Of a stretch of 64,000 nt of DNA, positions 37,116 to 58,730 are shown piece after piece (position 1 is the stretch's first letter; every line of letters begins with the position of its first letter). This stretch comes from Roseibium sp. (GTDB taxonomy: Bacteria; Pseudomonadota; Alphaproteobacteria; Rhizobiales; Stappiaceae): assembly GCA_017643925.1 (NCBI GenBank), contig JAEPML010000003.1:62001-126000 (forward strand), written 5' to 3'. The translations under genes were made by a program, and so were the position numbers. The notes below the pieces were generated by a model. It did not search any database. It had not been told where the DNA came from and saw only the letters and a program-made list of their open reading frames with translations.

Positions 37116-37205
37116 GGAGAGGTGCCGGAGTGGTCGAACGGGGCGGTCTCGAAAACCGTTGAGCGCGCAAGCGTTCCGAGGGTTCGAATCCCTCTCTCTC
37201 CGCCA
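37116..37205 (+). tRNA. tRNA-Ser (CGA), integration site of the island
   Basis: The gene runs from GGAGAGG to TCTCTCC-G-CCA, a seven-pair acceptor with one G-T pair. The anticodon loop CTCGAAA gives CGA, decoding UCG. The long variable arm (TTGAGCGCGCAAGCGTTCC) and T arm (GAGGGTTCGAATCCCTC) fit class II tRNA-Ser. The 3' end is repeated at 58719-58730, so this gene is the likely attachment site of the 21.5-kb island that follows. The tRNA itself remains complete. Confidence 0.97.
37192..37203 (+). repeat. Candidate attL core repeat in tRNA-Ser 3' end
   Basis: CTCTCTCTCCGC in the T arm/acceptor end of tRNA-Ser is repeated exactly at 58719-58730. The sequence is CT-rich, so some similarity by chance is possible; its position in a tRNA 3' end and beside an integrase supports the call. 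Confidence 0.6.
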
Positions 37206-37256
37206 TTTTTTCCTGTAAAATATTGATTTTTATATGTTAATTATGATGATGAGTTA

Positions 37257-37268
37257 TCAGACCATCAT
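37257..37268 (+). repeat. Candidate integrase arm site, left end
   Basis: TCAGACCATCAT lies 52 bases inside the left border in an AT-rich stretch with several ATGATG triplets. The same 12 bases recur at 58553-58564, and CAGACCATCAT again at 58566-58576, next to the integrase start. Such short repeats on both sides fit arm-type integrase binding sites. Confidence 0.55.
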
Positions 37269-37473
37269 TTAGCCCATCAGTTAACGGGGTTGTTCACAGC
37301 CCTGACGTTCAATTAGGATTTTTTCGCGTCAAGCTCTTGCACGCGATCGCAACAGGGCCTACCCAATATGTAACTCGGCTCATTCATGTCATCCGGGTTC
37401 ATCACCAGCTTGCGCAGGACGTGCTCGCCAACCGAAACCGCTCGTTTACCCGAGCGCGACTTTGGAGGCTTGC

Positions 37474-37836
37474 ATGTGCGCGGCACGGCAAACTGAACTC
37501 TTTCCCGCTATTGATCCTTCCACCCTGGAAGCACCATCCGAAAAGAAGCCCAAGGCCTCACCACCAGCCCGGCCAGCGTCTGCACAGCAAAAAGCAAAAT
37601 CAAAGCAGTCTGGCACGGGAGAAAGACGCAGCCCGAAGAAGACTGATGTCCTTTCTCCCTGGATGGCAGTCGGCGACGTTGCCACCTTTTTTGCCGTCAG
37701 CAAGCCCACCATTTGGCGCTGGACCAAAAATAATCCGGAGTTTCCAAAGGGCCATGAACTTTCTCACGGAACGACCCGTTGGTATCGGGCAGAGATTGAA
37801 GATTACTGCCTGAAGCTGCGGAGTGTGAACTCTTGA
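37474..37836 (+). CDS. HTH protein, AlpA/excisionase-like
   Basis: The product has about 120 residues. After a Pro/Lys/Ser-rich N-terminal half, residues about 62-112 carry WMAVGDVATFFAVSKPTIWR and WYRAEIEDYC, a MerR-like/AlpA winged helix of the kind used by phage and island excisionases. ATG 37474 follows GGAGG by five bases. Its stop overlaps the next start by four bases, so the two HTH genes are coupled. It may control excision or the recombinase at 38347. Confidence 0.75.
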   Translation: MCAARQTELFPAIDPSTLEAPSEKKPKASPPARPASAQQKAKSKQSGTGERRSPKKTDVLSPWMAVGDVATFFAVSKPTIWRWTKNNPEFPKGHELSHGTTRWYRAEIEDYCLKLRSVNS

Positions 37837-38288
37837 GTGCGCCTGCTACAGAAAAACCGGCAAGGCGGCAGACCCTAAAAAGCGCACGGTTAGCGCGCGC
37901 CCACTGGCTCTATTCAATCGACGATGTGATTGCGCTCTATCTGGTTTCCAGGCAAACCGTCCGGAACTGGATGCGCTGCGGATTGAAAGCAATTGAAGCA
38001 GAAAAGACGCTCTTTCTCGGGCAGGATCTGAATGCCTTCCATGCCCGGCGACGCAGGGAAGCAAAAGTGCCCTGCTCTTTCGAAGAAATCTACTGCGTCT
38101 GCTGCAAGCAAAAACACTCGCTTCTTATCGAACCCTTCACTATCGAGCAACGAGGCAAGTTCCGAACGCTTGTCTCCATGCAATGCCCCGAGACTGGCGG
38201 CAGGGCTACCAAGTTTGTCGGTGAGAGCGATCTGCACCGATTGAGAGACCTGCAAAAACGCAATCGCAGTGCCGAGACTCCCGATTAG
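37833..38288 (+). CDS. HTH protein with Cys-rich segment, recombinase-associated
   Basis: The 151-residue protein has an HTH segment (SIDDVIALYLVSRQTVRNWM, about residues 29-48). It is followed by CVCCKQKHSLL and MQCPETGG, which could form a small zinc-binding ribbon. The start is TTG at 37833, overlapping the previous stop (TTGA). It lies between the AlpA-like gene and a tyrosine recombinase, and such three-gene sets recur in alphaproteobacterial mobile regions. I do not recognise a named family. Confidence 0.65.
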   Translation: MSAPATEKPARRQTLKSARLARAHWLYSIDDVIALYLVSRQTVRNWMRCGLKAIEAEKTLFLGQDLNAFHARRRREAKVPCSFEEIYCVCCKQKHSLLIEPFTIEQRGKFRTLVSMQCPETGGRATKFVGESDLHRLRDLQKRNRSAETPD

Positions 38289-38346
38289 GGAATCTCTCCT
38301 CTCCACGCTGCAATTCGCTGTATCAACTTAGTCGGAGGTAGACTAC

Positions 38347-39456
38347 GTGCACGCCCCCACCGCTTTGACGCTTTATTTTTACCAAACGCATATGAAAGAG
38401 GCCCGTGGTCTGGATGCCAAGACAATCAGCGCCAGGATGCGGCACCTTGGGCAGTTCGCGGCCAGTCTTGGGGAGAAGGAGCTTTCCAAGCTGACGCAGG
38501 ATGACATCATTGGCTTTAAAAAGACACTGAATGCGACGGATAACGGAGAGAACCCTGGACACAGAAGTTTGGCGGCGCCAACCGTCGTGCAGACCTGTCA
38601 CGATCTGAAGACCTTCCTCGAATGGCTTTCAAAGGAACCTGGCTACCGGTCCCTTCAAAGGGACCTTGCCGACTACTGCACACCGCCACGTCGTTTGACT
38701 ACTATCGCCCACACACCGAAGACAAAACATATTCCGTCTGCGGCGGACATAATCTCAACGCTGAATGCCACGCCTGATACTACATTACAGGACCGGCGGG
38801 ATCGCGCGGTGATAGCCTGTTTGTTCCTGACAGGTGTTCGGGACGGCGCCCTGGTCAGTCTCCGTCTCAAGCATATGGACATTAATCGCAGGTGTTTGCA
38901 CCAGGACGCCAGAGAAGTGAAAACGAAATTTTCCAAGACGATGCAGACGAACTGGTTTCCGGTCGGAAACGGCATTGCCGCGATCGTTACAGACTGGGTT
39001 GAAGAGAGACGCACCTTCGGTGCACAGGACGATGACCCCCTCTTTCCCCGGACACCCAGTGCTGTTCGCGGCCCCAATTCGGATCACAAAGAGGCATTCT
39101 GGAAGACGACATCCCCCATTCGCCAGATAATCAGGAAGGCAACTGAGGCAGCAGGAGTTCAATATTTCAAGCCTCATTCAGTTCGGGCAACGCTAGCTCG
39201 GATGTGCCTAACCTGGGCAAGAACACCTGAGGAACTGAAGGCCCTAAGCCAGAACCTGGGGCATGAAAACATCTCAACAACCATGGAGCATTACGCTACG
39301 CTCAGCGACGACCGTCAGCGAGAGTTGGTATTGGGAATGTCGGATCGCGATGCAAAATCAGAAGAGAATATGGAGTTGGTCGACCTTATCTACCAGCTAC
39401 CATCAGAGAGCAGACGTGTTTTGAAGGCGACAGCGCAGGCTTTGATCAAGGGATAG
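38347..39456 (+). CDS. Tyrosine recombinase / site-specific integrase (left-end)
   Basis: The 369-residue protein has an N-terminal SAM-like core-binding domain (residues about 5-110) and a catalytic domain. The catalytic residues are visible: Arg in TGVRDGALVSLRL, HxxR in HSVRATLARM, and His and Tyr in LGHENISTTMEHYATL. The GTG start at 38347 follows GGAGG by nine bases. It is unlike the P4-type integrase at the other end. It could be a remnant of a second element or an internal recombinase of the island. Confidence 0.9.
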   Translation: MHAPTALTLYFYQTHMKEARGLDAKTISARMRHLGQFAASLGEKELSKLTQDDIIGFKKTLNATDNGENPGHRSLAAPTVVQTCHDLKTFLEWLSKEPGYRSLQRDLADYCTPPRRLTTIAHTPKTKHIPSAADIISTLNATPDTTLQDRRDRAVIACLFLTGVRDGALVSLRLKHMDINRRCLHQDAREVKTKFSKTMQTNWFPVGNGIAAIVTDWVEERRTFGAQDDDPLFPRTPSAVRGPNSDHKEAFWKTTSPIRQIIRKATEAAGVQYFKPHSVRATLARMCLTWARTPEELKALSQNLGHENISTTMEHYATLSDDRQRELVLGMSDRDAKSEENMELVDLIYQLPSESRRVLKATAQALIKG

Positions 39457-40028: not shown

Positions 40029-40592
40029 TTAACGAAACTTTCGCCACATGGGCTGTTGATTGGTTGTTGCGGCAGGTCTCCGCTTGCTTTCTCTCGGAAG
40101 GTACGCTTTTTGCGAGCAAGGACCGCAATAGATTTGCCCTGGATCTGTCGGGGCTCCACAATATCGGAACTGCGGAGACTGTGGGTCCCCTATGGGCCAG
40201 CGACAGGTATGGGCATCAAGCTCCTGTATCGTCAGGTATCGGCTCATCGGAATGACATTGTTCTTTTCGGCAAGTTTTTGGGGCAGAGGTTCAGGTAGAT
40301 GAGAAGGTGAACGAGCCTGCGCGGCGGTTGCGCCCACAGCTGTTCGTGCCTTAGCGGGTTTTCGGGGCTGCTTAGCCACCTGCTTCGATTCTGGCTTGGC
40401 TTTTTTGACAGGCCTTGTGCTGGTTTTTTGCCTTCCCGACAAACCGAGGCGATGGACCTTTCCAATCACGGCATTGCGTGTGACTCCACCCAGTTGAGAC
40501 GCGATTTGACTGGCGCTCAACCCCTCTATCCAAAGCGTCTTCAGTTGTTCCACGCGGTCATTTGTCCAAGTCGTTCCAGAACCCGCCGACAT
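40029..40592 (-). CDS. GcrA-family cell cycle regulator (island copy)
   Basis: The 187-residue protein has the full GcrA N-terminal DNA-binding domain (LSASQIASQLGGVTRNAVIG, then KVHRLGLSGR). A Lys/Ala/Pro-rich linker and the C-terminal domain TCRWPIGDPQSPQFRYCGAP with YCGPC follow. In typical GcrA the last pair is CxxH (often YCxHH); here it is CxxC. GcrA binds sigma70 and GANTC-methylated promoters in Caulobacter and relatives. This copy is on a mobile island next to thrS, so it is probably a paralogue of a core gcrA elsewhere. An inverted repeat lies upstream at 40616-40640. Confidence 0.88.
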   Translation of the reverse strand: MSAGSGTTWTNDRVEQLKTLWIEGLSASQIASQLGGVTRNAVIGKVHRLGLSGRQKTSTRPVKKAKPESKQVAKQPRKPAKARTAVGATAAQARSPSHLPEPLPQKLAEKNNVIPMSRYLTIQELDAHTCRWPIGDPQSPQFRYCGAPTDPGQIYCGPCSQKAYLPRESKRRPAATTNQQPMWRKFR

Positions 40593-40833: not shown

Positions 40834-42825
40834 TCATCCGGTTTGACTCAAAGCTTCTTCCATCAGCTCGGGAGCGCCTTGCGAGCCGGAAGGCAAAGGA
40901 GTTGTTGTCATCGAACGCGGTGCTTGCGCTTCTTCCGCGATCAAATCCAACGCTTCTTCAAGGGCCAAAACGTTTGTTTGGGATGAGCCAAGCCGACGAA
41001 TGGAAACGGTCCGGCTTTCCAGTTCGTTCTTTCCGAGAATGACGAGAATTGGAACCTTTTTCAGGCTGTGTTCCCGAACCTTGTAAGGGATCTTTTCGTT
41101 CCGAAGATCACTTTCCACCCTAATGTTTCGTGCCCTTAGAGCCGCTGTGACCTCGTCGGCGTAATCGTCCACTTTGGAGGTAATTGTTGTCACAACAGCC
41201 TGCACTGGAGCCAGCCAAAGCGGGAGTTTTCCAGCATGATGTTCAATCAAGATGCCCGTGAAGCGCTCAAGGGAACCAAACATCGCCCGGTGCAGCATGA
41301 CCGGTGTGACCTTTTGGCCCTTGTCATCAACATAGAAGGTTCCGAAGCGATCCGGCAGATTGAAATCCACCTGGAGCGTTCCGCACTGCCAGTCACGACC
41401 AATAGCATCGCGCAGCACGTATTCGAGCTTGGGGCCGTAAAAGGCGCCTTCTCCCTCATTGACGGAATAAGGTCTGCCCAAAGTGTCCAGGGCATTGCGA
41501 AGCGACTGTTCGGAGCGATCCCATGACTCATCAGAACCGATCCGATGCTCTGGCCTGGTCGACAGCTTTATGCGGATGTCTGTGAAACCGAAGTCGGCAT
41601 AAATCGACAGGATCAGGTCATTGACCTTGATGCACTCGGCGGTGAGTTGATCTTCTGTACAGAAGATGTGTGCATCATCCTGCGTGAAGGACCGGACGCG
41701 CAAAAGACCATGCAATGCCCCAGACGGCTCGTACCGATGCACTTTCCCAAACTCCGCGATCTTGAGAGGCATGTCACGATAACTCTTGAGACCTTGCTTG
41801 TAGATCAGCATGTGGCCGGGACAGTTCATCGGTTTGAGGGCGAAGTCGCGATCATCCTCGGTCTTCGTTGTGAACATGTGCTCACGATAGTTTTGCCAGT
41901 GGCCCGAGGTTTCCCAGAGATTTCGATCCATGATATCGGGCGTGTTGACTTCGGTGTAGCCGGCAGCAGCTTGCCGGTCGCGCATGTAGGCGATGAGGCT
42001 CTGGAATAAAGACCAGCCCTTCGCGTGCCAAAAAACCGATCCTGGCGCTTCTTCCTGAAAGTGAAAAAGATCCATTTCTCTGCCGAGACGCCTGTGATCC
42101 CTTTTCTCCGCTTCCTCGAGCATTTTGAGGTGTGCGTCGAGTTCTTCCGGTGTTGCAAACGCTGTACCGTAGATACGCGTCAACATCGGATTGTTGGCGT
42201 CTCCGCGCCAATATGCTCCCGCGACCTTGGTCAATTTGAACGCAGATCCAATCTTGCCTGTCGAAGTCATATGCGGACCTCGGCACAGGTCGAGCCAGTC
42301 TCCCTGCCGATAGATTTTGATCGGTTCCCCCTCCGGGATTGCATCAACAAGCTCGACCTTGAAATGTTCGCCCTTATCCCGAAAGAAGCTTTTGGCCTCT
42401 TCGCGGTCCCAAACTTCTCGTGTGAAGACTTGGTTCCGGGCCACGATTTCTCGCATACGGGCTTCAATGACCGGCAGGTCGTCCGGTGTGAACGGAGTGT
42501 CTCGCGCAAAGTCATAGAAAAAGCCGTTTTCGATGACCGGCCCAATGGTCGCCTGCGTCCCGGGAAACAGCTCCTGCACCGCTTCGGCAAGAACATGTGC
42601 AGCGTCATGGCGAATGAGTTCCAATGCGCGCGCGTCCTCGCGCATGATGAACTCGACATTGGCGTCTTGCGTCAAAGGCGCGGACAGATCCGTGAGATTG
42701 CCGTCCAACGTCATCGCGATTGCTTTTTTCTTGAGCGAAGGCGCGATTGAAGCTGCGATATCCGAACCTGTCACCGGTTCTTCAAATGTACGTTGTCCAC
42801 CGTCTGGCAGGGTAATGAGGACCAT
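40834..42825 (-). CDS. thrS: Threonyl-tRNA synthetase (island copy)
   Basis: The 663-residue enzyme is complete: a TGS domain (residues 1-62), an editing domain with HDAAH and DLCRGPH, a class II catalytic core and an anticodon domain. The zinc ligands of E. coli ThrRS are kept: Cys in MNCPGHM, His in DDAHIFC and His in [14 protein letters not shown]. It therefore still needs zinc for threonine recognition. Its place on an island beside a Zur operator suggests an extra copy made when zinc is short. One of two ThrRS genes in Anabaena is Zur-controlled in this way. The promoter region is shared divergently with cysS, about 630 bases away. Confidence 0.95.
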
Positions 42826-43120: not shown

Positions 43121-43137
43121 ATGTTATAACGTAACAT
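43121..43137. promoter_or_regulatory. Zur-type operator 1 (thrS side)
   Basis: ATGTTATAACGTAACAT is a perfect ATGTTA-N5-TAACAT palindrome. The known proteobacterial Zur consensus is an AT-rich palindrome centred on TGTTATA-TATAACA. It lies 296 bases upstream of thrS. Confidence 0.75.
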
Positions 43138-43347: not shown

Positions 43348-43369
43348 ATGTTACTTTATAACATAACAT
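43348..43369. promoter_or_regulatory. Zur-type operator 2 (cysS side)
   Basis: ATGTTACTTTATAACAT (43348-43364) again gives perfect ATGTTA-N5-TAACAT arms. A further TAACAT half-site follows directly (43364-43369). It lies about 90 bases before the cysS start. Confidence 0.75.
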
Positions 43370-43455: not shown

Positions 43456-44796
43456 ATGCTAAGACTCTTTAACTCCATGGGCCGGAAGGTTGAGACCTTT
43501 GCCCCACGCGACCCCAAACATGCGCGCATGTATGTTTGTGGTCCGACCGTTTATTCATTTGCGCATATTGGCAACGCACGCCCAGCTGTGGTGTTCGACG
43601 TGCTGGCGCGCGTGTTACGCCGACAGGTGGCGCAACTCACCTATGCGCGCAACATCACGGATGTGGATGACAAAATCATTGCGTCCGCAGCAGTCCAGGG
43701 CGTGACTTGCGATGAAATTGCCGCGCGTTTTACCGAGGCCTATCACACCGACCTGTCTGCCCTCGGCGTTGTGCCTCCTGACATCGAGCCGCATGCGACG
43801 GCTCATATCGGGCCGATGATCTCGATGATCGAAGAATTGATTGATAAAGGGCGGGCCTATGAAGCTGAAGGGCATGTGCTTTATCACATTCCCAGCTTTG
43901 CAGACTATGGGAAGCTGTCTGGCGCAAATCCAGATGAAATGCTTTCAGGTGCCCGCGTTGAAGTTGCACCATTCAAACGGGACCCGCGCGACTTCGTTCT
44001 CTGGAAGCCGTCCAGTGCAGAACAACCCGGATGGGAAAGTCCTTGGGGGTTTGGCAGACCGGGATGGCACATCGAATGCTCGGCGATGATCCGGACGCAT
44101 CTGGGGGACCAAATCGACATTCACGGGGGAGGGATCGATCTTCGGTTTCCCCATCATGAAAATGAGATTGCACAAGGCACGGACGCGCGTTTCTGGGTAC
44201 ACAATGGGCACGTCACGGTCTCCGGGGCAAAGATGTCCAAGTCTCTTGGAAACATTCTTTTGGTTCGTGATCTTTTGAAGGATACGCCGGGAGAGGCGAT
44301 CCGATATGCGTTGCTGTCCGCGCATTACCGTCAGCCGCTTGATTGGACACCAGAAGCTGCACGCGCTGCGCGGGCAGCGCTCGATCGCCTGTATGGCGCG
44401 CTTCGTGATCAGCCGGATGCTGAGCCGAACCCCAAAGACATGGAACCCGTGTTCGCGGCGCTTGACGATGATTTGAACACGCCTGCCGCGCTGGCGGCTC
44501 TTCACGAGCTTGCCGGGCAGGTTCATTCGAATCCTGATCCAGTTCGCAAGATGGAGATCGCGGCAAGCCTCCGCGAGGCAGGTGCGCTTGTCGGCATATT
44601 GCAGCAGGACGCGACGGCTTGGGCGCAGGCGGGAGCGGGCGAAATTGCACAAATAGAAGCCCTTGTGTCTGAACGTGCCGAAGCGCGTGCAAATCGAGAC
44701 TGGGCACATGCAGACGCATTGCGAGATGAGCTTCTGGTTCTCGGAATTGAGGTCGAGGATGTTGGCGGCGAGAGCCGCTGGCGCGTGCGGGCTTAA
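43456..44796 (+). CDS. cysS: Cysteinyl-tRNA synthetase (island copy)
   Basis: The 446-residue class I synthetase has the HIGH motif as SFAHIGNAR and KMSKS as AKMSKSLGN. The zinc site that selects cysteine is intact: Cys in VCGPTVY, Cys in GWHIECSAM, and His and Glu in FPHHENE. Length and C-terminal part are normal. It is presumably a second copy, read divergently from thrS with a Zur-type palindrome 90 bases upstream. The ribosome-binding site is weak. A cytidine deaminase gene, another zinc enzyme, follows by 122 bases. Confidence 0.95.
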
Positions 44797-44918: not shown

Positions 44919-45326
44919 ATGACGACTTCCGTACCTGACTTGCGTGCCGCGGCTGCATCTGTTCGCGAAAATGCTTATGCGCCCTACTCCAATTTCAAGG
45001 TAGGTGCAGCGATGCGCGCCAAATCGGGCAAGATCTATGTTGGAGCCAATGTCGAAAACGTGTCCTACCCGGTTGGAACCTGCGCAGAAGAAGCCGCACT
45101 CGCTGCAATGATTGCTGCAGGCGAAACCGAAGTCGTTGAGGCTTATGTCATCGCAGACTGCGCCGAACCCATTCCACCTTGTGGCGCTTGCCGTCAGCGC
45201 CTCAAGGAATTTGGCAAGGATGATGTCACCGTGTGGTTGGGGACTACGGACGGAGCGGAGGAGGCAACAACGATCGGTGATTTGTTACCCGGCGCCTTTG
45301 ATACCGCTCATATGGCACGTAGCTAG
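44919..45326 (+). CDS. cdd: Cytidine deaminase
   Basis: The 135-residue homotetrameric-type enzyme deaminates cytidine and deoxycytidine. The zinc motifs are intact: GTCAEEAAL (Cys-Ala-Glu with the catalytic Glu) and PPCGACRQRL. VGANVENVSYP binds the nucleoside. It uses zinc directly and follows cysS in the same direction, probably in the same Zur-controlled unit. AAGG lies at 44908-44911. Confidence 0.93.
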   Translation: MTTSVPDLRAAAASVRENAYAPYSNFKVGAAMRAKSGKIYVGANVENVSYPVGTCAEEAALAAMIAAGETEVVEAYVIADCAEPIPPCGACRQRLKEFGKDDVTVWLGTTDGAEEATTIGDLLPGAFDTAHMARS

Positions 45327-45422: not shown

Positions 45423-46295
45423 ATGATCGATATCCAACCTTTGGCCATCCTTCGCGAAATTGATCGCACAGGTAGCCTGACCCAGGCTGCCGATCAATTG
45501 AACCTGACCCAGTCTGCCGTCAGTCATGCGATCCGTCGTTTCGAGGACCGTCACAGTGTCAAGCTTTGGCAACGTGAAGGGCACAAACTGCGTCTGACGC
45601 TTGCAGGCGAGTATCTATTGGGGTTGGCCTTGCGAGTGTTGCCCCAGCTTGAACATGGCGCAACTGTTCTTGAAGACTATGCACGTGGGCGGCGTGGTGC
45701 GATCAGAGTGGGGATGGAATGTCATCCGTGTCAGGATTGGCTGATGCGTGTGGTGGACCCGTTTCTGGCAGAATGGCCTGACGTCGAACTCGATGTAACC
45801 ACAGCCTTCCAATTTGGTGGTCTGGCAGCGCTTCTGAGCCACGAGATTGACATTCTCGTCACACCTGACCCGGTCGACCGTCCTGGGCTCGAATTCAAGC
45901 CTGTCTTCGACTACGAACTGGTATTGGCAGTTGCGGTGTCCGATCCCCTGGCACAAAAGCAAAGGGTTGAGCCTGAGGACCTGTCCGGCGAAACACTAAT
46001 TACATATCCGGTTTCCCGTGAAAGGCTGGATATCTATACCCGGTTTTTCGTTCCGGCCCACACTCTGCCTCGCCGTCATCGAACGGTGGAAACAACCGAT
46101 CTGATGTTGCGGCTCGTGGCATCGGGACGCGCGGTCAGTGCGACACCAGACTGGCTGTTGCGAGATGCTGAGGGGGTGAAGGGCGTGCGGCTCGGTGAGG
46201 GGATCAAGAAGTCGATCCATCTCGGGCATCGGGCGGGCAATATCACCAGTTACCTGCAAGGCTTCATCAATCTGGCCGAGAAGGTCCAGATCTGA
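45423..46295 (+). CDS. LysR-family regulator, MetR-like
   Basis: The 290-residue protein has an N-terminal HTH (GSLTQAADQLNLTQSAVSHA) and a LysR effector domain. It shares MetR hallmarks, notably VGMECHPCQDWL (MetR of E. coli has IECHSCIQWL), FDYELVLAV and LITYPVSRERLDIY. MetR senses homocysteine and controls methionine genes. It precedes mesX and mesD in the same direction, and a shared palindrome stands before metR and before mesX. Most likely it activates this methionine synthase unit. Confidence 0.88.
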   Translation: MIDIQPLAILREIDRTGSLTQAADQLNLTQSAVSHAIRRFEDRHSVKLWQREGHKLRLTLAGEYLLGLALRVLPQLEHGATVLEDYARGRRGAIRVGMECHPCQDWLMRVVDPFLAEWPDVELDVTTAFQFGGLAALLSHEIDILVTPDPVDRPGLEFKPVFDYELVLAVAVSDPLAQKQRVEPEDLSGETLITYPVSRERLDIYTRFFVPAHTLPRRHRTVETTDLMLRLVASGRAVSATPDWLLRDAEGVKGVRLGEGIKKSIHLGHRAGNITSYLQGFINLAEKVQI

Positions 46296-48697: not shown

Positions 48698-48777
48698 GAT
48701 GGCCCTCTTGCGATCAGGTTCAGCTATTCGACCCGTTCAAAAGCGACAGCATCAACTTTAGACCTGAGATACCAATG

Positions 48778-49368: not shown

Positions 49369-49385
49369 ATGTTATATAGTAACTA
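49369..49385. promoter_or_regulatory. Zur-type operator 3 (before zur)
   Basis: ATGTTATATAGTAACTA matches the ATGTTA-N5-TAACAT pattern of the thrS-cysS sites except in the last two bases. It lies 29 bases before the zur start and suggests autoregulation of the zur-znu operon. Confidence 0.7.
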
Positions 49386-49940: not shown

Positions 49941-50680
49941 CACCAGCTCTCGCATTCAATGACCTCACACTGGGTTATGACCGGCTTCCCGCGGTTCAAA
50001 AACTTCAGGCCGATATCGCCGAAGGCAGCCTGACTGCTGTGGTAGGCCCCAATGGCGCTGGAAAGTCGACCTTGCTGAAAGGGGTGACCGGAGCCTTGGC
50101 ACCCTTGCAGGGAAAGGTAGAGTTCGGCGCCTTGAACCGTGACGATATCGCCTACCTGCCGCAACAATCCGACATCGACCGAGCGTTCCCACTCTCGGTC
50201 GTAGATCTTGTCGCGATGGGATTGTGGCGTGAGATCGGACCGTTTGGTTGGCTTGGAAGAAAGCAGCGAGGCCGTGTTGAAGCTGCAATTTCGTCGGTTG
50301 GTCTGACCGGACTTGAGTCGCGTCCCATCGGGTCCCTCTCCGGAGGTCAGATGCAGCGCGCGCTTTTCGCGAGGCTCCTCTTGCAAGACGCGCGCCTCGT
50401 TCTGTTGGATGAGCCCTTCACCGCAATTGATGCGCGCACGATGGCCGATCTGATCGCGGTGGTTCGAAATTGGCACCGGGAGGGACGCACGGTTCTTGCT
50501 GTTTTGCACGATGCTGAAACCGTTCGCGCTCACTTCCCCGAGACACTGATGTTGGCACGCGAGCTCGTGGCACACGGACCGACAGAACAGGTGATGACAG
50601 CCGAAAACCAGTTCCGCGCGCGCCAGATGTGCGAAGCGTGTGCAGGCCCACCCCATGTCTGCGGGCGGGAAGTCGCATGA
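49937..50680 (+). CDS. znuC: Zinc ABC transporter, ATP-binding protein
   Basis: The 247-residue ABC ATPase has Walker A at residues 37-45 (GPNGAGKST), the signature LSGGQMQRALFAR, and Walker B LVLLDEPFTAID. LPQQSDIDRAFPLSV is the Q-loop form usual in metal importers of the ZnuC/MntB type. The C-terminus has extra Cys and His (MCEACAGPPHVCG). The start overlaps the small ORF and the stop overlaps znuB, so the operon is tightly coupled. Confidence 0.95.
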   Translation: MTPALAFNDLTLGYDRLPAVQKLQADIAEGSLTAVVGPNGAGKSTLLKGVTGALAPLQGKVEFGALNRDDIAYLPQQSDIDRAFPLSVVDLVAMGLWREIGPFGWLGRKQRGRVEAAISSVGLTGLESRPIGSLSGGQMQRALFARLLLQDARLVLLDEPFTAIDARTMADLIAVVRNWHREGRTVLAVLHDAETVRAHFPETLMLARELVAHGPTEQVMTAENQFRARQMCEACAGPPHVCGREVA

Positions 50681-51546
50681 TCTGGGATCTGATCTTTCAA
50701 CCATTCGCCGATTTCGGTTTCATGCGTCGTGCGTTGCTTGGCTGTTTTGCGGTCTCGCTCGGAGCCACACCCGTGGGTGTTTTTCTGATGCTCAGACGCA
50801 TGAGCCTGACTGGTGATGCGATGGCACACGCAATTCTTCCCGGCGCAGCGGTCGGCTTTCTGGTGGCAGGGCTGTCACTGGGTGCCATGACCATCGGAGG
50901 TCTGATCGCCGGCATGGCAGTAGCGCTTTTGTCAGGCCTGGTCACTCGCGTGACCGCCTTGCGCGAAGATGCCAGCCTCGCGGCCTTCTATCTCATTTCA
51001 CTGGCACTTGGCGTTCTAATAGTCTCCACCCGTGGCAGCAACGTCGACTTGATGCATGTCCTGTTCGGCACGGTTCTCGCACTCAACGACGCCGCGCTTA
51101 TTTTGCTGTGTTCGATCGCAAGTCTTTCTATCCTGACGCTCTCGGTCCTCTTCAGGCCTTTGGTCCTGGAATGCGCGGACCCGCAGTTTTTGCGCTCTGT
51201 CAGCAAGCTCAGCGCTGTTACGCACTTTGTCTTCCTGTCGCTCGTGGTTCTGAACCTCGTTGGGGGATTTCACGCGCTGGGCACGCTAATGGCAGTCGGT
51301 ATCATGATCCTGCCTGCTGCAGCGGCTCGCTTTTGGGCGACTGGCATCGGAGGGCTGATTTTCGTCGCCGTTGCCGTTGCCTTTTTCTCCAGCCTGAGCG
51401 GCCTGCTGCTCTCCTACCATTTCAGCTTGCCCTCGGGACCAGCAATCATCCTCGTAGCCGGGATTGTCTACGCGGTGTCGCTCGTCCTCGGACCGGCAGG
51501 CGGACTTATTGCTCAGGTGCTGCCACGCGGCCCTGTGCAGAACTGA
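50677..51546 (+). CDS. znuB: Zinc ABC transporter, permease
   Basis: The 289-residue ABC-3 family membrane protein has about eight hydrophobic segments, for example SLTGDAMAHAILPGAAVGFL with the family's core His, and TRGSNVDLMHVLFGTVLALN. ATG 50677 overlaps the znuC stop (ATGA). It forms the channel for zinc delivered by ZnuA. Confidence 0.95.
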   Translation: MIWDLIFQPFADFGFMRRALLGCFAVSLGATPVGVFLMLRRMSLTGDAMAHAILPGAAVGFLVAGLSLGAMTIGGLIAGMAVALLSGLVTRVTALREDASLAAFYLISLALGVLIVSTRGSNVDLMHVLFGTVLALNDAALILLCSIASLSILTLSVLFRPLVLECADPQFLRSVSKLSAVTHFVFLSLVVLNLVGGFHALGTLMAVGIMILPAAAARFWATGIGGLIFVAVAVAFFSSLSGLLLSYHFSLPSGPAIILVAGIVYAVSLVLGPAGGLIAQVLPRGPVQN

Positions 51547-51557: not shown

Positions 51558-52775
51558 ATGACACCTCGCAGAACTGTTCTCAAGTCCGCAACTGCTCTTG
51601 TTGCGCTTTCCATGTTTTCACCGACGCTTGCCTTGGCGGATAATCCGACCCCTGTCGTGGCGACGTTCTCCGTCCTTGGCGACATGGTCGAGCGCATCGG
51701 TGGTGACCATGTTGACGTAACAACGCTGGTTGGCTCCGACGGCGACGCCCATGTCTACCAGCCCACTCCCAAGGATGCGGGCGCGGTTAAGAATGCCAAG
51801 GTTCTGATCGTCAATGGTCTTGAATTTGAAGGCTGGCTGGATCGCCTCTCCGAGGCATCCGGATTTGACGGAACACTGGTCGTTGCGACAAAGGGCGTTG
51901 ACGCCATTCCTTTTGGCGAGCACGACGAACATGATGATCATGACGAGCATGGGCATGGTGATGAGAAACATGCAGATCATGACGACCATGACCATGAAAA
52001 GCATGCCGATCACGACGATCATGACCACGAGAAGCATGCCGATCACGACGATCATGACCACGAGAAGCATGCTGATCACGATGATCATGACCATGAAAAG
52101 CATGCGGATCATGACGATCATGATCATGAAAAGCATGCGGATCATGACGATCATGATCATGAAAAGCATGCGGATCACGACGATCATGACAAGCATGATG
52201 ATCATGAAGAGCATGCAGGGCACGATCACCACGGTCACGATCACGGCGCTTTCGATCCACATGCCTGGCAGAGCCTTGATAACGCAGTCATCTACGTAAA
52301 CAACATCACGGCGGCACTCTCGGAAGCCGATCCGGCCCATGCTGGAATTTTCCAGAAGAACCGCGATGCCTATGTGGCCGAGATTGAAGCACTTGAAGTT
52401 GAAATCGACGCTCTGATGAAGGCACTGCCTGAAGATCGCCGTACGGTTGTCACATCCCATGATGCATTTGGCTACTTTGCCAAACACTACGGGCTGACAT
52501 TCGAGGCGCCGCAAGGGCTGAGCACCGAAAGTGAAGCCTCTGCCGCTGACGTTGCGAAGCTGATCACACAAATCCGCGATGAAGGGATTTCGGCCGTGTT
52601 CGTTGAATCGATCACGGACAATCGTTTGCTGGAGCAGATAGCGAACGAAACCGGCGCAAAGATTGGCGGGACGCTCTACTCAGATTCCCTGTCCGGGTCT
52701 GACGGACCGGCAGGAACCTATCTCGACATGATGCGCCATAACGCAGAAACCCTGTCACAGGCACTCGGTTCCTGA
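51558..52775 (+). CDS. znuA: Zinc-binding periplasmic protein with a very long His/Asp-rich loop
   Basis: The 405-residue cluster A-I binding protein has a twin-Arg-like signal (MTPRRTVLKSATALV). Zinc-ligand regions are DAHVYQPTP, DPHAWQSLDN and VTSHDAFGYFAKHYGL, with the C-terminal SITDNRLLEQIANETGAK. Between them (about residues 118-233) lies a His/Asp/Glu-rich loop with about 40 His, made mostly of seven EKHADHDDHDH units. The loop is far longer than the 20-40 residues common in ZnuA. It may buffer or capture zinc at very low concentration. AAAGG lies seven bases before the start. Confidence 0.95.
   Translation: MTPRRTVLKSATALVALSMFSPTLALADNPTPVVATFSVLGDMVERIGGDHVDVTTLVGSDGDAHVYQPTPKDAGAVKNAKVLIVNGLEFEGWLDRLSEASGFDGTLVVATKGVDAIPFGEHDEHDDHDEHGHGDEKHADHDDHDHEKHADHDDHDHEKHADHDDHDHEKHADHDDHDHEKHADHDDHDHEKHADHDDHDHEKHADHDDHDKHDDHEEHAGHDHHGHDHGAFDPHAWQSLDNAVIYVNNITAALSEADPAHAGIFQKNRDAYVAEIEALEVEIDALMKALPEDRRTVVTSHDAFGYFAKHYGLTFEAPQGLSTESEASAADVAKLITQIRDEGISAVFVESITDNRLLEQIANETGAKIGGTLYSDSLSGSDGPAGTYLDMMRHNAETLSQALGS
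51963..52193 (+). repeat. Seven 33-bp tandem repeats coding the ZnuA metal loop
   Basis: Seven in-frame 33-bp units each encode EKHADHDDHDH (the last ends DK). Units differ in third-codon positions in blocks: units 2-3 are alike and units 5-7 are alike. This points to stepwise expansion. Copy number may vary between strains. Confidence 0.95.
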
Positions 52776-52889: not shown

Positions 52890-54053
52890 ATGAAAACACG
52901 TGCAGCCATAGCCTGGGCACCGAACCAGCCGCTTGAAATCGAGGAGATTGACCTCGAAGGTCCCAAGGAAGGTGAAGTGCTTGTCCGAATTGTCACGACA
53001 AGTCTTTGCCATACGGACGTCTTCACACTGTCTGGTGAAGATCCGGAGGGGCTGTTTCCCTGTATTCTCGGCCACGAAGGTTGCGGGATTGTCGAAGAGG
53101 TTGGCAAAGGCGTCACGTCGGTGGTGCCGGGGGATCACGTCATCCCGCTCTACATTCCTGAAGATCCGGATTGCCCCTACATCAAGTCAGGCAAGACGAA
53201 TCTCTGTCAGACCATCCGGCAGACACAAGGCGCAGGCCTGATGCCCGATGGCACTTCGCGCTTTTCCTATAAGGGCAAGCAGATCCTTCACTACATGGGC
53301 ACCAGTACATTCAGTGAATATACTGTGCTTCCCGAGATTTCAGTCGCCAAGATCACCAAGGAAGCACCCCTTTCCAAGGCGTCCGTCATGGGATGCGCTG
53401 TGCCAACGGGTATCGGCGCGGTGCGCAACACCGCGAAAGTCGAAGCTGGCGCAACCGTCGCCGTTTTTGGGTTGGGTGCTGTTGGCATGGCGGTGATCCA
53501 GGGTGCGGTCTTGAACGGTGCTTCGAGGATAATCGGAATTGACATCAACACGTCCAAGTTCCCGCTCGCAAAGGCACTTGGAGCCACGGAATGCCTCAAC
53601 CCCAAAGACTACGACGCACCTATCCAGAATGTCCTGGTCGAGATGACCAATGGCGGATTGGACTATACGTTTGAAGCGGTTGGAAATGTTGAACTGATGC
53701 GTTCGGCGCTTGAGGCGTGCCACAAGGGATGGGGCGAGTGCACGGTGATTGGTGTTGCCGGGGCCGGGCAAGAGATCGCTACACGGCCGTTCCAGCTTGT
53801 TACCGGCAGGGTTTGGCGTGGAACCGCCTTTGGCGGTGTTCTTGGCCGCAGCCAGCTGCCAGGCATGGTCGATGAATGGCTTCGCGGTGATTTCAGCGTG
53901 GATCCCTACATCACGCATCATATGAACCATGAGCAGATCAATACCGCGTTTGATCTTTTGAAAGCAGGCGAGTCGATCCGGTCGGTCATCCACTTCCGTC
54001 CTAGTGAAACGCTGACGGTCAATTCGCTTCCGGGGCAAATCGTTACCGGCTAA
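52890..54053 (+). CDS. frmA: S-(hydroxymethyl)glutathione dehydrogenase, structural-zinc site degraded
   Basis: The 387-residue class III alcohol dehydrogenase oxidises the glutathione adduct of formaldehyde with NAD. The catalytic zinc ligands remain: Cys40 (SLCHTD), His62-Glu63 (GHEGCG) and Cys169 ([10 protein letters not shown]). The structural zinc loop has the usual spacing but reads Asp92, Cys95, Ile98, Cys106 where the family has four Cys. Two of four ligands are lost, so the structural zinc is probably not bound. [20 protein letters not shown] and [18 protein letters not shown] are diagnostic for class III. GGGAGG precedes the start. The change fits a zinc-sparing paralogue. Confidence 0.9.
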
Positions 54054-54296: not shown

Positions 54297-56003
54297 ATGA
54301 CAACCGACGCAGTTTTCATTGACGCGCTGACAGAGATCGTTGGCACTTCAAATGTGCGAACAAGTGCAGCCGGTACCAAGCGGTTTCGAACGGGGTTTCG
54401 TTCCGGAGACGGTGAAGCGGAAGCGGTTGTCATACCCGGCACGCTTCTGGAAATGTGGCGTGTGTTGCAGACATGTGTCGCCGCCAATCGGATCGTGATC
54501 ATGCAGGCTGCCAATACGGGGTTGACGGAAGGGTCGACCCCCAAAGGCGAGTACGACCGGGATGTCGTGATCATCAATACATTGCGCATGGACAAGATCC
54601 ATGTGCTGAAAAACGGTCACCAGATTGTCGGCCATCCCGGAAGCACGCTCTACAAGCTGGAAAGGATGCTCAAACCGCTTGGCCGAGAACCTCACTCTGT
54701 AATCGGATCAACCAACATCGGTGCGTCGATAGTTGGGGGTGTCTGCAACAACTCAGGGGGTGCGCTGACCCAGCGCGGCCCCGCTTACACGGAGCTTGCC
54801 CTTTATGCCCAAGTGGGCAGCGACGGCGTGTTGCGACTTGTCAATCATCTCGGGATCGATCTGGGTGACACACCCGAGGAGATCCTTGAAAGGCTCGAGC
54901 AGGGCCAGTTTAGCGAAGCGGACGTGCACGAGGGCGCTGGGCGCGCCTCGGATGACGGTTACGCTAAAAAGGTTCGGGATGTCACGGCTTCCACACCGTC
55001 TCGCTACAACGCGGATCCGGACAGGTTGTTTGAGGCATCAGGCTCTGCCGGAAGACTGGCTGTGTTCGCCGTGCGTCTCGACACGTACCCGGCCATTGGA
55101 GAGGAACGCGTTTATTACATTGGCACCAATGATCCGGCAGATCTGACTGCCTTGCGACGCCGCATTTTGACGGAGTGCACGGAACTGCCGATTTGTGGCG
55201 AGTACGTGCACCGCGACCTTTTTGATGTCGCGCGCAAATATGGCAAAGACACCTTGATGATGATCCACTGGTTCGGCACGGATCGCCTGCCATTGTTTTT
55301 TGCAATCAAGGGAGCGCTCGATGCGCGTCTCAACAAGATCCCGTTCCTGCCGAGCAATCTGGTAGATCGCATGATGCAGATGCTGAGTGCATTGGTCCCA
55401 GAGCCGCTGCCGAAACGCATGCTGGATTGGCGATCACAATATGAACACCACCTCATTCTGAAGGTGGGAGCAAAAGAAGCCGAAGCCACGGAAACTATTC
55501 TGGCTGAAGTTCTGGCAAAGGAGGCTTGGTTCTCCTGCACCGCGGCTGAAGCCAAGAAGGCGATGCTGCATCGCTTCGCTGCCGCTGGTGCCGCCGTCCG
55601 GTATCACGCCGTGCATACGAGTGAAGTTGAGGATGTCATCGCGCTCGACATTGCCTTGGCTCGAAACGACGAAAACTGGTTTGAAAATCTCCCGGAAGAG
55701 ATCGAGAAGGACCTGATTGCGAAACTCTATTACGGCCACTTCTTTTGCCACGTCTTTCACCAGGACTATGTGGTGCGAAAGGGAGCTGACCCAAAGGCGA
55801 TCAAGCAGAAAATGCTGGCGCTTCTGGACCGGCGCAATGCCGAATACCCGGCTGAACACAATGTCGGTCATCTGTATGGTGCCAAGCCCGCTCTGGCCGA
55901 ATTCTACGAGGCACTCGATCCCACCAACAGTTTTAACCCAGGCATTGGGAAGACCTCGAAACAGAAACGGATCCCGACACCTGAAGCCGAACAGCACGCC
56001 TAG
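54297..56003 (+). CDS. dld: D-lactate dehydrogenase, FAD-dependent, quinone-linked (island copy)
   Basis: The 568-residue protein has the same length and motifs as the copy at 565-2271 (QAANTGLTEGSTPKGEYDRD, GASIVGGVCNNSGGAL, YYGHFFCHVFHQDY) but differs throughout. It is therefore an older paralogue, not a recent duplicate. ATG 54297 follows GGAGAAG by nine bases. The enzyme needs no zinc. D-lactate is the end product of the glyoxalase route, which handles methylglyoxal with metal-dependent enzymes; with frmA next to it, an aldehyde-detoxification link is possible but unproven. Confidence 0.93.
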   Translation: MTTDAVFIDALTEIVGTSNVRTSAAGTKRFRTGFRSGDGEAEAVVIPGTLLEMWRVLQTCVAANRIVIMQAANTGLTEGSTPKGEYDRDVVIINTLRMDKIHVLKNGHQIVGHPGSTLYKLERMLKPLGREPHSVIGSTNIGASIVGGVCNNSGGALTQRGPAYTELALYAQVGSDGVLRLVNHLGIDLGDTPEEILERLEQGQFSEADVHEGAGRASDDGYAKKVRDVTASTPSRYNADPDRLFEASGSAGRLAVFAVRLDTYPAIGEERVYYIGTNDPADLTALRRRILTECTELPICGEYVHRDLFDVARKYGKDTLMMIHWFGTDRLPLFFAIKGALDARLNKIPFLPSNLVDRMMQMLSALVPEPLPKRMLDWRSQYEHHLILKVGAKEAEATETILAEVLAKEAWFSCTAAEAKKAMLHRFAAAGAAVRYHAVHTSEVEDVIALDIALARNDENWFENLPEEIEKDLIAKLYYGHFFCHVFHQDYVVRKGADPKAIKQKMLALLDRRNAEYPAEHNVGHLYGAKPALAEFYEALDPTNSFNPGIGKTSKQKRIPTPEAEQHA

Positions 56004-56159: not shown

Positions 56160-56193
56160 ACTTGTCGGTAGAAAAAACCACAAGGAGAGATCA

Positions 56194-56352
56194 ATGGCTG
56201 ATTCAAAGTCATGTGCTTGCAAAAACTGCCCGCCTGCCTGCAACTGCGGACAAAAGGTACCAGGAGATCAAAAGTGTTGTTGCGGCGACACCTGCACCTG
56301 CAAGGACTGTGCGTGCGGACCTGAATGCGGGTGTCCAAACACTGCAAAATAA
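56194..56352 (+). CDS. Bacterial metallothionein-like peptide
   Basis: The 52-residue peptide has 14 Cys and no His, arranged as CxC, CxxC and CCC groups (CACKNC, CNCG, CCCG, CTCKDCAC, CGC). This is a metallothionein-type metal-thiolate protein that should bind zinc, copper or cadmium. AAGGAGAG stands four bases before ATG 56194. The ECF sigma gene follows after 14 bases, so both are probably one transcript. In a zinc island it could store zinc, or it could belong to a separate copper/cadmium response. Confidence 0.88.
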   Translation: MADSKSCACKNCPPACNCGQKVPGDQKCCCGDTCTCKDCACGPECGCPNTAK

Positions 56353-56366
56353 AGTAAATTCCGCCC

Positions 56367-56921
56367 ATGTCGCAATTTGATCCAAGTGAATGCGTTGCAT
56401 CCGCGTTGCATGCTCATAGAGGTGAACTGAGACGCTATCTGGCGTCTCGGGTGCCGTCGGAAGACGTGGAGGACGTGCTTCAAATTGCGGCTTTAAGGGC
56501 GATCGAAAGATCTGAGGACCTGCGGGACCCGGCACTAGTTTTGAATTGGCTCTATCGCGTGCATGCCAACATCGTTGTCGATCTAGGCCGCAAGAAAGCC
56601 AGCGAGCGGCGTTTGCAAGAGGCAATGGCCCTGGAGGCAGAACCGGTCGAAAGAAGCCATGAACCAAATTGCAGGTGCAGCGTCGCGCAGGCACGGCAAC
56701 TTGGCAAGAACTACGCCTCAATTCTCGACCTGGTCGACATTTCGGGCAAATCGATTGCGCACGCAGCACGCACGCTGAACATTTCCGTCAACAACGCAAC
56801 GGTGAGGCTTCACCGCGCACGTGCAGCCCTGAAGAAACGTCTTCAGGAACACTGCGGCGTAACCAGTCCGAGCGCCTGTAACGACTGCAAGTGTAGCTAC
56901 GAAGGCTGTTGCGGAGGCTGA
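56367..56921 (+). CDS. ECF sigma factor with Cys-rich C-terminal tail
   Basis: The 184-residue protein has region 2 (ELRRYLASRVPSEDVEDVLQ) and region 4 (ISGKSIAHAARTLNISVNNA, then TVRLHRARAALKKRL). No anti-sigma gene is adjacent. The last 22 residues contain six Cys (HCG, ACNDCKC, GCC) and the linker has NCRC. A C-terminal Cys-rich domain that senses metal directly is known for CorE-type ECF factors. It therefore probably detects metal itself and drives the metallothionein operon from the TGTAAG-N17-CGTCTT site. Confidence 0.85.
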   Translation: MSQFDPSECVASALHAHRGELRRYLASRVPSEDVEDVLQIAALRAIERSEDLRDPALVLNWLYRVHANIVVDLGRKKASERRLQEAMALEAEPVERSHEPNCRCSVAQARQLGKNYASILDLVDISGKSIAHAARTLNISVNNATVRLHRARAALKKRLQEHCGVTSPSACNDCKCSYEGCCGG

Positions 56922-57299
56922 CGTTTCACTGGCTAGTGGATCCCATCACCTGGTGCAAAGATACGGACGTAAGTTCGCATGGTCTCGAAAACTCTCAGGG
57001 GAAGCCGGAGCGGCCTTTTCGGGAAAGTGGCTTGTGCGGTTAAACGTCCGAAAAGGGCGCAAAGCTGTCGCTCATCCAAAGCGCGCCTAACGGATTTTGA
57101 TGTGAGGGCTCAAGGGTTCGCGACCCTGACAAGCCTAGAGCAAGGGGCTGTCGAAGCTATTGGTATCAGAAGACGCCTCAAGTGCAGCGATGGTCCTGAT
57201 CGGGCAACAACAAACAGTTTCCCGCTGTAAGGGCGGGCTTTGCTTCAGCCTAACAGACAAATCGAATTGAGAGGATAGACGTCGCGCACCGGGATTCGC
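56922..57299. other. Intergenic region, right part of island
   Basis: About 380 bases between the ECF gene and the integrase stop hold the right copy of the AACGTCCGAAAAGGG repeat (57043-57057). An 83-codon frame (from 56979) shows no recognisable protein. The two flanking genes converge here; I see no clear terminator. Confidence 0.5.
57043..57067 (+). repeat. Short dispersed repeat, right copy
   Basis: AACGTCCGAAAAGGG followed by CGCAAAGCTG. It matches the 15-bp core of 39717-39731 exactly and the following bases partly. Confidence 0.55.
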
Positions 57300-58517
57300 T
57301 TAGACACCTGCTCTATCTAACACCCAAGCTTCCCACGCCAGCATCATGTCCCGTCGCTGATCCAAGAGATCGGTGCGATGATAGGCGGCCTCAGTCGCAT
57401 TCCTGATCGTGTGAGCAAGAGCTCTTTCTGCCAGATCTCGGGGGTATCCGCTTTCAGACGCCCAGTCGCGAAAGCTAGAGCGGAAGCCATGTGCCGTAGC
57501 TAACCGACCAGGCGTGTCGCTCTGGACATTGTTGTCTCGCAAACACTTGGTCAGCGTCATATCACTAACCGGTGTGCCGTTGCGTGACGGAAAAACCAAC
57601 TGCGTCGTTTCAACGTCGGCCTCGTCTTTCATTCTCTCGAACAGGTCCACCAGATGAGGAGAAAGTGGTACGCGGTGCGTCACATTTGCCTTCATGCGCT
57701 GGGCGGGCAATGTCCAAATGCCTTGCGCCAAATCTAGCTCAGGCCATTCCATCTTCCTGATTTCTCCCGAGCGCGCCGCTGTCAGAAGAAGTACTTCCAG
57801 CATAAATTTAGATCGCGTTTGAAGGCCCGAGTGCAAAACGTTCTTTACAAAAACCGGTATTTCTCGCCAGGGAACGGCCGGCTGATGAGCCACACGTTCA
57901 CGTTTTCCCGGCTGCTTGGGAAGCAGTTGGCTGACGACACCGACCGGGCTTGCCAAGATATATCCGTGTGCTGCGCACCAGTTCATCACGGCATCACATC
58001 GTTGTTTGACCCGGGTGGCAGTTTCAGGCTTTTCTAACCAGATCGGCTTCAATGCTGCAGCGAAATCAGCCGGAGAAAGCTTCGAAACCTGCACGCGACC
58101 GATTGACGGGAAGACATACTGTTCCAGCGTGTTGATCCACTGGTTTGCATGTTTCTTATTCCGAAATCCTGCCTTCAGGTCTTTGTGATGCTCTCGAGCG
58201 GCCTCAGCAAATGTAGGAAGAGAGAGTTTTCTCTTCTCCTCCTCGAAAACCCGCTGACGTTCATTCAGCGGGTCCACACCACTTTCAAGAAGCCGACGGG
58301 CATTCAGTGCATTGTCACGCGCATCCTTGACGGAAATCGACGGATAGCTGCCAAGTCCCATGTCCCGACGCTTGCCCGTTTCAGGGGAGACAAACCGAAA
58401 CACCCATTTCGCTTTGCCAGATGACTTTCCGGGAAACAGGTAGAGCCCCCGAACAGAACCATCCGAGACCGGCTTGTCACCGGGTTTGATCTTTCTGGCC
58501 TTTGCATCCGTGAGCAT
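57300..58517 (-). CDS. Tyrosine integrase, P4 type
   Basis: The 405-residue integrase begins with a DUF4102 arm-binding domain (MLTDAKARKIKPGDKPVSDG, LYLFPGKSSG, RRDMGLGSYPSISVKDAR). A core-binding domain and the catalytic domain follow. Catalytic residues are Arg in TAARSGEIRKM, HxxR in HGFRSSFRDWA, His in RALAH and Tyr in EAAYHRTD. P4-type integrases insert into tRNA 3' ends, which fits tRNA-Ser at the other border. Its start faces the right border, with arm-type repeats at 58553-58576 just upstream. Confidence 0.95.
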   Translation of the reverse strand: MLTDAKARKIKPGDKPVSDGSVRGLYLFPGKSSGKAKWVFRFVSPETGKRRDMGLGSYPSISVKDARDNALNARRLLESGVDPLNERQRVFEEEKRKLSLPTFAEAAREHHKDLKAGFRNKKHANQWINTLEQYVFPSIGRVQVSKLSPADFAAALKPIWLEKPETATRVKQRCDAVMNWCAAHGYILASPVGVVSQLLPKQPGKRERVAHQPAVPWREIPVFVKNVLHSGLQTRSKFMLEVLLLTAARSGEIRKMEWPELDLAQGIWTLPAQRMKANVTHRVPLSPHLVDLFERMKDEADVETTQLVFPSRNGTPVSDMTLTKCLRDNNVQSDTPGRLATAHGFRSSFRDWASESGYPRDLAERALAHTIRNATEAAYHRTDLLDQRRDMMLAWEAWVLDRAGV

Positions 58518-58552
58518 CGTGCGTGTCTTTTGATTTGATCACAACACCACAA

Positions 58553-58576
58553 TCAGACCATCATACAGACCATCAT
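58553..58576 (+). repeat. Candidate integrase arm sites, right end (two copies)
   Basis: TCAGACCATCAT (58553-58564) and CAGACCATCAT (58566-58576) follow each other. They lie about 36-60 bases upstream of the integrase start. The same 12 bases lie at 37257-37268 inside the left border. Confidence 0.6.
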
Positions 58577-58718
58577 GATGTGCGATATTTACTACCATTA
58601 GATGATAGGGATTGATACGACAAAGTAGAATTGTTAGTCAATTACTATATATATTTCAATTATATAATGAACCCTCATGATTGGGATTGATAGAGGATTC
58701 AACACGTTTTTTGGCGGA

Positions 58719-58730
58719 CTCTCTCTCCGC
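58719..58730 (+). repeat. Candidate attR core repeat
   Basis: CTCTCTCTCCGC equals 37192-37203 in tRNA-Ser. Here it is part of GCGGA-CTCTCTC-TCCGC, a short inverted repeat. I take its last base as the right border of the island. Confidence 0.6.

Follow-up and report, generated by a model that had tools for sequence, protein, structure and literature searches.

The window analysed here, 64 000 nt of the draft genome of Roseibium sp. (GCA_017643925.1; 5.83 Mb in 130 contigs), is the interval C64:62001-126000 (contig JAEPML010000003.1), and within it we describe an island of ~21.5 kb that carries a set of zinc-linked genes. A tRNA-Ser(CGA) gene beside rplU (37116-37205, + strand; ARAGORN and Rfam), the only match of the Rfam scan, marks the apparent integration site at one end. 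At the far end stands a direct repeat of the 3′ end of this tRNA gene: the two attachment site (att)-like copies, at 37192-37210 and 58719-58737 (both + strand), are 19 nt long with 2 differences, and a repeat search found no third match within the window. A further direct repeat pair lies just inside the island ends (37256-37279 and 58552-58575, 24 nt, 88%). Guanine-plus-cytosine (GC) content per kb is 49-60% inside the island, mostly 53-57%, and mostly 57-64% outside. Another low-GC stretch was seen outside the island, at 14-18 kb of the window, with GC down to 50% at 16001-18000.

From left to right, and on the + strand unless noted, the island encodes an excisionase-like helix-turn-helix protein (37462-37836; Pfam HTH_17, below cut-off), a small protein accompanying the integrase (37833-38288; no Pfam family), a tyrosine recombinase, integrase 1 (38347-39456; PF00589), a GcrA paralogue, GcrA2 (40029-40592, - strand; PF07750, 158 bits), a second threonyl-tRNA synthetase, ThrRS2 (40834-42825, - strand; TIGR00418, 698 bits), a second cysteinyl-tRNA synthetase, CysRS2 (43456-44796; TIGR00435, 466 bits), a second cytidine deaminase, Cdd (44919-45326; TIGR01354, 137.5 bits), a LysR-type regulator (45423-46295; Pfam) whose target, to judge by position, is perhaps mesX-mesD, MesX (DUF1852; 46585-47568; PF08908, 576 bits), the oxygen-dependent partner of MesD, the core methionine synthase MesD (47600-48643; PRK09121, 691 bits) and a flavin reductase (48775-49281; PF01613). 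The order continues with Zur (49414-49815), the ATPase (49937-50680), permease (50677-51546) and zinc-binding protein (51558-52775) of a zinc ATP-binding cassette (ABC) importer, the glutathione-dependent formaldehyde dehydrogenase FrmA2 (52890-54053), a quinone-dependent D-lactate dehydrogenase, Dld (54297-56003; PRK11183, 911 bits), a metallothionein-like protein (56194-56352), an extracytoplasmic function (ECF) sigma factor (56367-56921) and a P4-type integrase, integrase 2 (57300-58517, - strand; Pfam Arm-DNA-bind_3 and Phage_integrase). By Pfam the two integrases are of different kinds. An initial annotation of this DNA had proposed a mobile island devoted to zinc economy, and the genes that it named are all in place: Zur and an importer, ThrRS, CysRS, Cdd, FrmA, a metallothionein with its ECF factor and a methionine synthase system.

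Zur-type palindromes had been noted at the thrS-cysS and zur promoters, and the pattern search bears this out. The window holds three predicted Zur boxes that match TGTTAYNNNRTAACA, where 0.10 would be expected by chance. Two are exact and lie between thrS2 and cysS2, at 43122-43136 (~297 nt upstream of thrS2) and 43349-43363 (~92 nt upstream of cysS2); the third, with 1 mismatch, is at 49370-49384, 29 nt upstream of zur. The thrS2-cysS2 pair are the only two exact matches in the genome, and of the 12 genomic places that match with at most 1 mismatch, three fall within the 21.5 kb of the island (binomial P ~1e-5). The box before zur is conserved in all three relatives that carry this gene module (G032, G067 and G023), and G032 also has a 1-mismatch box at thrS2. 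Gel shifts have been used to test the Zur motif of Paracoccus denitrificans, e.g. GTTACGATATAACAT, and the cysS2 box shares its form (PMC5387054). Zur itself passes the Pfam cut-off for the FUR family, and its best NCBIfam model is Zur, at 94 bits, under the cut-off of 167. In a set of 80 thrS loci, 9 of the 10 with a COG0523 gene or FrmA2 nearby also have a box no more than 6 kb away, versus 3 of the 70 others (P 9e-9), a grouping chosen after a looser first split had given 9 of 23 versus 3 of 57 (P 4e-4). The looser definition of zinc context was replaced; it counted ordinary hisI and folE neighbours.

Elsewhere in the genome a zur-like gene with ABC genes was found on contig C53, and a second zinc locus lies on C43, outside the window (L193, G000:C43:22826-26891). 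In the latter, folE-hisI and SnoaL-COG0523-COG0523 flank two Zur-box-like sites, which are two more of the 12 genomic places; the second overlaps the beginning of the SnoaL frame in the present gene call. This gene set (folE, hisI, SnoaL, two COG0523) is of the kind described by Haas et al. (PMC2770081).

The importer had been called ZnuCBA. We rejected that label in favour of AztABC-like on the NCBIfam scores of the substrate-binding protein, 302 bits for the AztC model (cut-off 350) versus 77 bits for ZnuA (cut-off 268). The permease is 66% identical to the annotated AztB of Paracoccus versutus and the ATPase 56% to its AztA. A tandem-repeat search of the zinc-binding protein gene found seven 33-nt repeats (51961-52190) encoding a His/Asp-rich loop, and their copy number may vary.

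FrmA2 scores 638 bits with TIGR02818 (cut-off 544) and has the catalytic zinc ligands C40, H62 and C169. Its alignment to the human class III enzyme is gapless in the structural-zinc region, where that enzyme has four cysteines that we take to hold the structural zinc; FrmA2 has D92, C95, I98 and C106, so that two of the four are replaced. FrmA2 therefore likely holds one zinc per subunit instead of two, to judge from the alignment, and its Asp and other residues could perhaps still bind a zinc. The same pattern, catalytic C-H-C with structural D-C-I-C, recurs in 22 of 22 FrmA2 proteins (the window, two of the genus, four from the set of 80 thrS loci, six of the order and nine from plasmids), whereas the other FrmA of the host has C-C-C-C. 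A truncated frmA2 remnant in G067 was excluded from the 22; it runs into hisI sequence (L163:1738-2217), as if the intervening part had been deleted. At E <= 1e-185, FrmA2 is present in 7 of 397 genomes of the order. Zur, COG0523, HisI or azt genes occur in the stretch read at 16 of the 22 loci, and a COG0523 gene is nearby in 9 of 9 plasmid cases (E <= 1e-180); two of these plasmids were typed conjugative, and several are close kin, so that the nine stand for fewer than nine events. According to a review, Zur regulons include alcohol dehydrogenases other than this one, adhA and adhP (PMC6103462).

The initial annotation took the zinc enzymes to be extra copies, and core counterparts do exist in the genome: thrS on C22 (64%), cysS on C53 (48%), cdd on C42 (55%) and frmA on C53 (59%). 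Alignments (for ThrRS2 against PDB structures, for MesD against 3rpd) and motifs show that the zinc-binding residues of solved relatives are conserved in ThrRS2, CysRS2, Cdd and MesD, the positions in the first three being those that we take to be the ligands. ThrRS2 also has HxxxH and CxxxH, presumably the editing motifs. For MesD the ligand positions were taken from work on MetE/MesD (PMC7857596). These four proteins are therefore not zinc-free substitutes. HisI, CysRS and ThrRS paralogues likewise keep their ligands in the account of Haas et al. 2009, where extra copy number was suggested (PMC2770081), and the Anabaena ThrRS T2 remains dimeric once its zinc is removed (PMC4787780).

In a ThrRS tree of 67 sequences, four sequences from zinc-linked loci, two of them identical, form a group with the island copy (SH-like approximate likelihood ratio test 98), which adjoins a Rhodobacterales-type clade of 12 rows marked zinc and 4 ordinary rows. 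The island copy stands apart from the ordinary ThrRS of the host, which clusters with its own genus among mostly Hyphomicrobiales rows. A recent duplication of the host's thrS was rejected on this tree, which was built by a quick method. At E <= 1e-170, 7 of 397 genomes of the order, the present one included, have a CysRS2 relative, and in all six others it adjoins Zur or COG0523. No CysRS2 was found on plasmids at E 1e-150; a relative at 63% on a plasmid of Paracoccus sp. MA must fall below this limit. Another GcrA is encoded on C42, and gcrA2 adjoins thrS2 in G032 too. GcrA2 is a copy of a cell-cycle regulator in a zinc setting, and a 1-mismatch Zur-box-like site precedes the G032 copy.

Relatives of the island modules are found on other chromosomes and on plasmids. 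In G032, thrS2-gcrA2 and a COG0523 gene are on C44, while C60 carries zur-azt-frmA2, two COG0523 genes, SnoaL, folE-hisI, ArsR and the metallothionein-ECF pair, starting ~0.2 kb past a tRNA-Met. G023 has zur-azt-frmA2 with COG0523 and folE-hisI, and a second ThrRS was not found there; G067 has a shortened zur-azt-frmA part. The island joins modules that lie apart in relatives. The idea that the whole block moves together failed, as did its gain or loss as one block: the parts are on two contigs in G032 and ThrRS2 is missing from G023 (ThrRS2 not having been searched for in G067, and CysRS2 in none of the three). On alphaproteobacterial plasmids we read 12 clusters (the best 5 of 726 ThrRS matches plus 9 FrmA2 matches, 2 being shared). 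These have ThrRS2 and/or FrmA2 together with COG0523 in 12 of 12, HisI in 9 and a box at <=1 mismatch in 8. Three plasmids with ThrRS2 or FrmA2 clusters were typed conjugative, those of Phaeobacter inhibens, Sagittula stellata and Gluconobacter albidus. The plasmid zinc clusters are not tRNA islands; one has a CysRS2 relative (Paracoccus sp. MA) and one has MesXD (Tritonibacter). Klebsiella accounts for 570 of the 726 plasmid records with a ThrRS match, perhaps through the pLVPK-like Zur cluster named by Haas et al.

The integration site was compared within the genus. rplU, called by Pfam, adjoins the same tRNA gene in 29 of 29 fetched loci (L128-L156), and this left side is constant while the right side varies. 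For 25 longer stretches from 24 genomes, reaching 1.6 to ~19 kb past the tRNA and some of them short, Zur, ThrRS2, CysRS2 and FrmA2 were found in none. Integrase relatives occur at the same tRNA in six of the 25. Three (L206 in G034, L208 in G022, L209 in G016) have relatives of integrase 1 (77, 50 and 41%) with both of its small partner proteins, and lack the zinc genes of the island in the stretch read; three others have relatives of integrase 2 (36-38%). Partial tRNA copies lie 6-9 kb away in two of the 25. The tRNA-Ser locus is a busy integration site. In G012 a relative of Dld (61%) lies ~2 kb from the same tRNA-Ser with no zinc genes (L221:3063). The right-flank gene of the island, an FGGY sugar kinase, has relatives in 26 of 44 other genomes of the genus, none of them found beside this tRNA. 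ThrRS2 is rare in the genus (2 of 37 genomes searched, the present one included), as is the island-type Zur (4 of 45). Prophage origin was rejected, since megablast found no match to the island DNA among 50 697 phage records, and so was carriage of the whole island on a plasmid, no plasmid record covering 80% of it. The tRNA-Ser border, the 19-nt repeat, the two integrases and the lack of the zinc genes in the 25 same-site stretches agree with the first description: the element looks like an acquired, tRNA-bordered island.

The remaining cargo shows looser ties to zinc. Two other loci, on a Celeribacter contig (L007) and, by partial matches, on a Tritonibacter plasmid (L175), have MesX-MesD no more than 10 kb from ThrRS2 or FrmA2. 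The link of MesXD to zinc clusters is weak because MesX is common on plasmids at large (208 records). The metallothionein-like protein, as read and counted, has 52 aa with 14 Cys and no His, and belongs to no Pfam or NCBIfam family. The ECF factor, assigned by Pfam and NCBIfam, has a CXC motif in its linker and a Cys-rich C-terminal tail, which are marks of metal-sensing CorE-like ECF factors (PMC8999054), so it resembles a CorE-type metal sensor. This pair (56194-56921) is shared with G032 at 81% and 79%, there beside an ArsR-type regulator, and an ECF-promoter-like stretch, read by eye, precedes it in both genomes. It is probably a module for metal excess or buffering, outside the low-zinc switch.

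We conclude that a composite genomic island has probably inserted at the 3′ end of tRNA-Ser(CGA), providing its host with a second zinc-starvation response. As zinc falls, the island Zur would release its three promoters. The importer would then increase zinc uptake, and ThrRS2 and CysRS2 (with Cdd downstream), still zinc-requiring, would sustain tRNA charging as the host copies lose their metal, a step modelled on the report for ThrRS T2 of Anabaena. FrmA2, with a need for about one zinc per subunit, would take over from the two-zinc enzyme. MesXD, Dld and the metallothionein-ECF pair would be separate cargo modules under their own regulators. The proposal of a zinc-linked package survives in part: Zur/COG0523 clusters elsewhere repeatedly include relatives of ThrRS2, CysRS2 and FrmA2, and MesXD, Dld and the metallothionein-ECF pair have no Zur box.

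Several results weigh against this conclusion. Genome-wide, the box shows no excess over a reversed control pattern, which also matches at 12 places with <=1 mismatch, and the late choice of grouping for the thrS loci tempers that comparison. The pattern search of the window found no Zur box upstream of mesX, dld or the metallothionein gene. None of the 20 scanned proteins of the island region is a COG0523 protein, the two such genes being those on C43. Cdd and Dld had no match in the other zinc clusters read, and the LysR matches there were weak (26-27%). Three of the 22 FrmA2 loci have neither a zinc neighbour nor a box (L235, L236 and L239, of which L236 ends just past the gene), and three have a 1-mismatch box only (L041, L238, L240). 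Five of the 80 thrS loci pair an ordinary thrS with a CysRS at 55-59%; all five lack COG0523 and a box and four have folE/hisI, so part of the neighbourhood may be old core gene order. An empty site was sought in relatives and not recovered, because their right flank differs.

The strongest alternative, to which we allow a little short of an even chance, is a patchwork of independent insertions at a busy tRNA site, in which only thrS2-cysS2 and zur-azt-frmA2 respond to zinc and the rest is unrelated cargo. It overlaps with the composite island and differs in denying the other modules a shared purpose. The two different integrases, the separation of the modules in relatives and the lack of a Zur box at mesX, dld and the metallothionein-ECF pair all speak for it, as do the absence of Dld and Cdd from the other zinc clusters read and the G012 locus, where a Dld relative but no zinc gene lies close to this tRNA. 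It is harder to reconcile with the proximity of MesX-MesD to ThrRS2 or FrmA2 (10 kb at most) on the Celeribacter contig and, by partial matches, the Tritonibacter plasmid, and with the metallothionein-ECF pair adjoining the zur-azt-frmA2 cluster in G032.

A second alternative holds that the extra copies serve dosage or resistance (to an inhibitor of aminoacyl-tRNA synthetases, to formaldehyde or to metal excess), with Zur control incidental. Retention of zinc ligands by ThrRS2, CysRS2, Cdd and MesD fits it, and the CorE-like ECF factor beside a metallothionein points to metal excess, but we consider it improbable: predicted boxes stand directly at thrS2 and cysS2, all six CysRS2 relatives and nine of nine plasmid FrmA2 adjoin Zur or COG0523, FrmA2 lacks structural-zinc cysteines, and Anabaena ThrRS T2 retains its zinc ligands yet functions at low zinc (PMC4787780). 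Slightly less probable again is that zur-azt-frmA2 is an old chromosomal zinc locus of the lineage, captured between two integrases and not acquired; G032, G023 and G067 do carry the module with no integrase noticed in stretches read by eye without a family scan, but Zur is present in only 4 of 45 genus genomes, the neighbourhood differs between G032 and G023/G067, and ThrRS2 groups with zinc-cluster ThrRS of other families.

Beyond the composite island itself, we see an evenly balanced case for a wider proposal, that modular zinc-sparing kits are exchanged among Alphaproteobacteria by way of tRNA islands and conjugative plasmids. The kits would be marked by a separate FrmA lineage that has lost the structural zinc, has kept the catalytic one and belongs to the Zur response, together with foreign ThrRS and CysRS and, in some kits, with MesXD. 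The data suggest that the response to scarce zinc, for which a core chromosomal regulon is the usual object of study, is also a trait that bacteria swap piecemeal. FrmA2, with D-C-I-C replacing four cysteines, is a concrete and cheaply testable case of metal thrift through sequence change, and the island offers a new system for asking how second aminoacyl-tRNA synthetases that still require zinc help under zinc shortage.

The first description was not aware of any account of such a transferable package; to call it undescribed is too strong. Haas et al. 2009 described Zur-regulated COG0523 clusters with zinc-enzyme paralogues of nine families, ThrRS and CysRS included, one of these clusters being on plasmid pLVPK of Klebsiella pneumoniae (PMC2770081). 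Among the literature matches listed, largely from the open literature, we found no such tRNA-Ser island, no FrmA2 lineage and no union of these genes with Cdd, GcrA2, MesXD and a CorE-type metallothionein pair; nor did the listed matches include a report of FrmA in Zur regulons or, beyond the VSP-II paper, of mobile zinc clusters. VSP-II of Vibrio cholerae is likewise an acquired island with Zur-controlled genes; there chemotaxis genes are under Zur, and the abstract names no zur, importer or zinc-enzyme copies (PMC8248653). The thrS2 operon of Anabaena also has a Zur-repressed second ThrRS that keeps its zinc ligands and works at low zinc, but T2 is editing-impaired, whereas the ThrRS2 described here has editing motifs and comes with CysRS2 on the island (PMC4787780). 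With CorE-like ECF factors (PMC8999054) the island factor shares the CXC linker and Cys-rich tail, differing in its operon-like pairing with a metallothionein. Like the clusters of Haas et al., the island combines Zur, a zinc importer and ThrRS and CysRS paralogues with their zinc ligands kept. Unlike them, it is a tRNA-Ser island without a COG0523 gene of its own, and it adds Cdd, a FrmA deficient in structural zinc, GcrA2, MesXD and the metallothionein-ECF pair, none of which is among the nine families given there. We read it as a modular, tRNA-borne variant of known clusters, in which FrmA2 is probably zinc-sparing.

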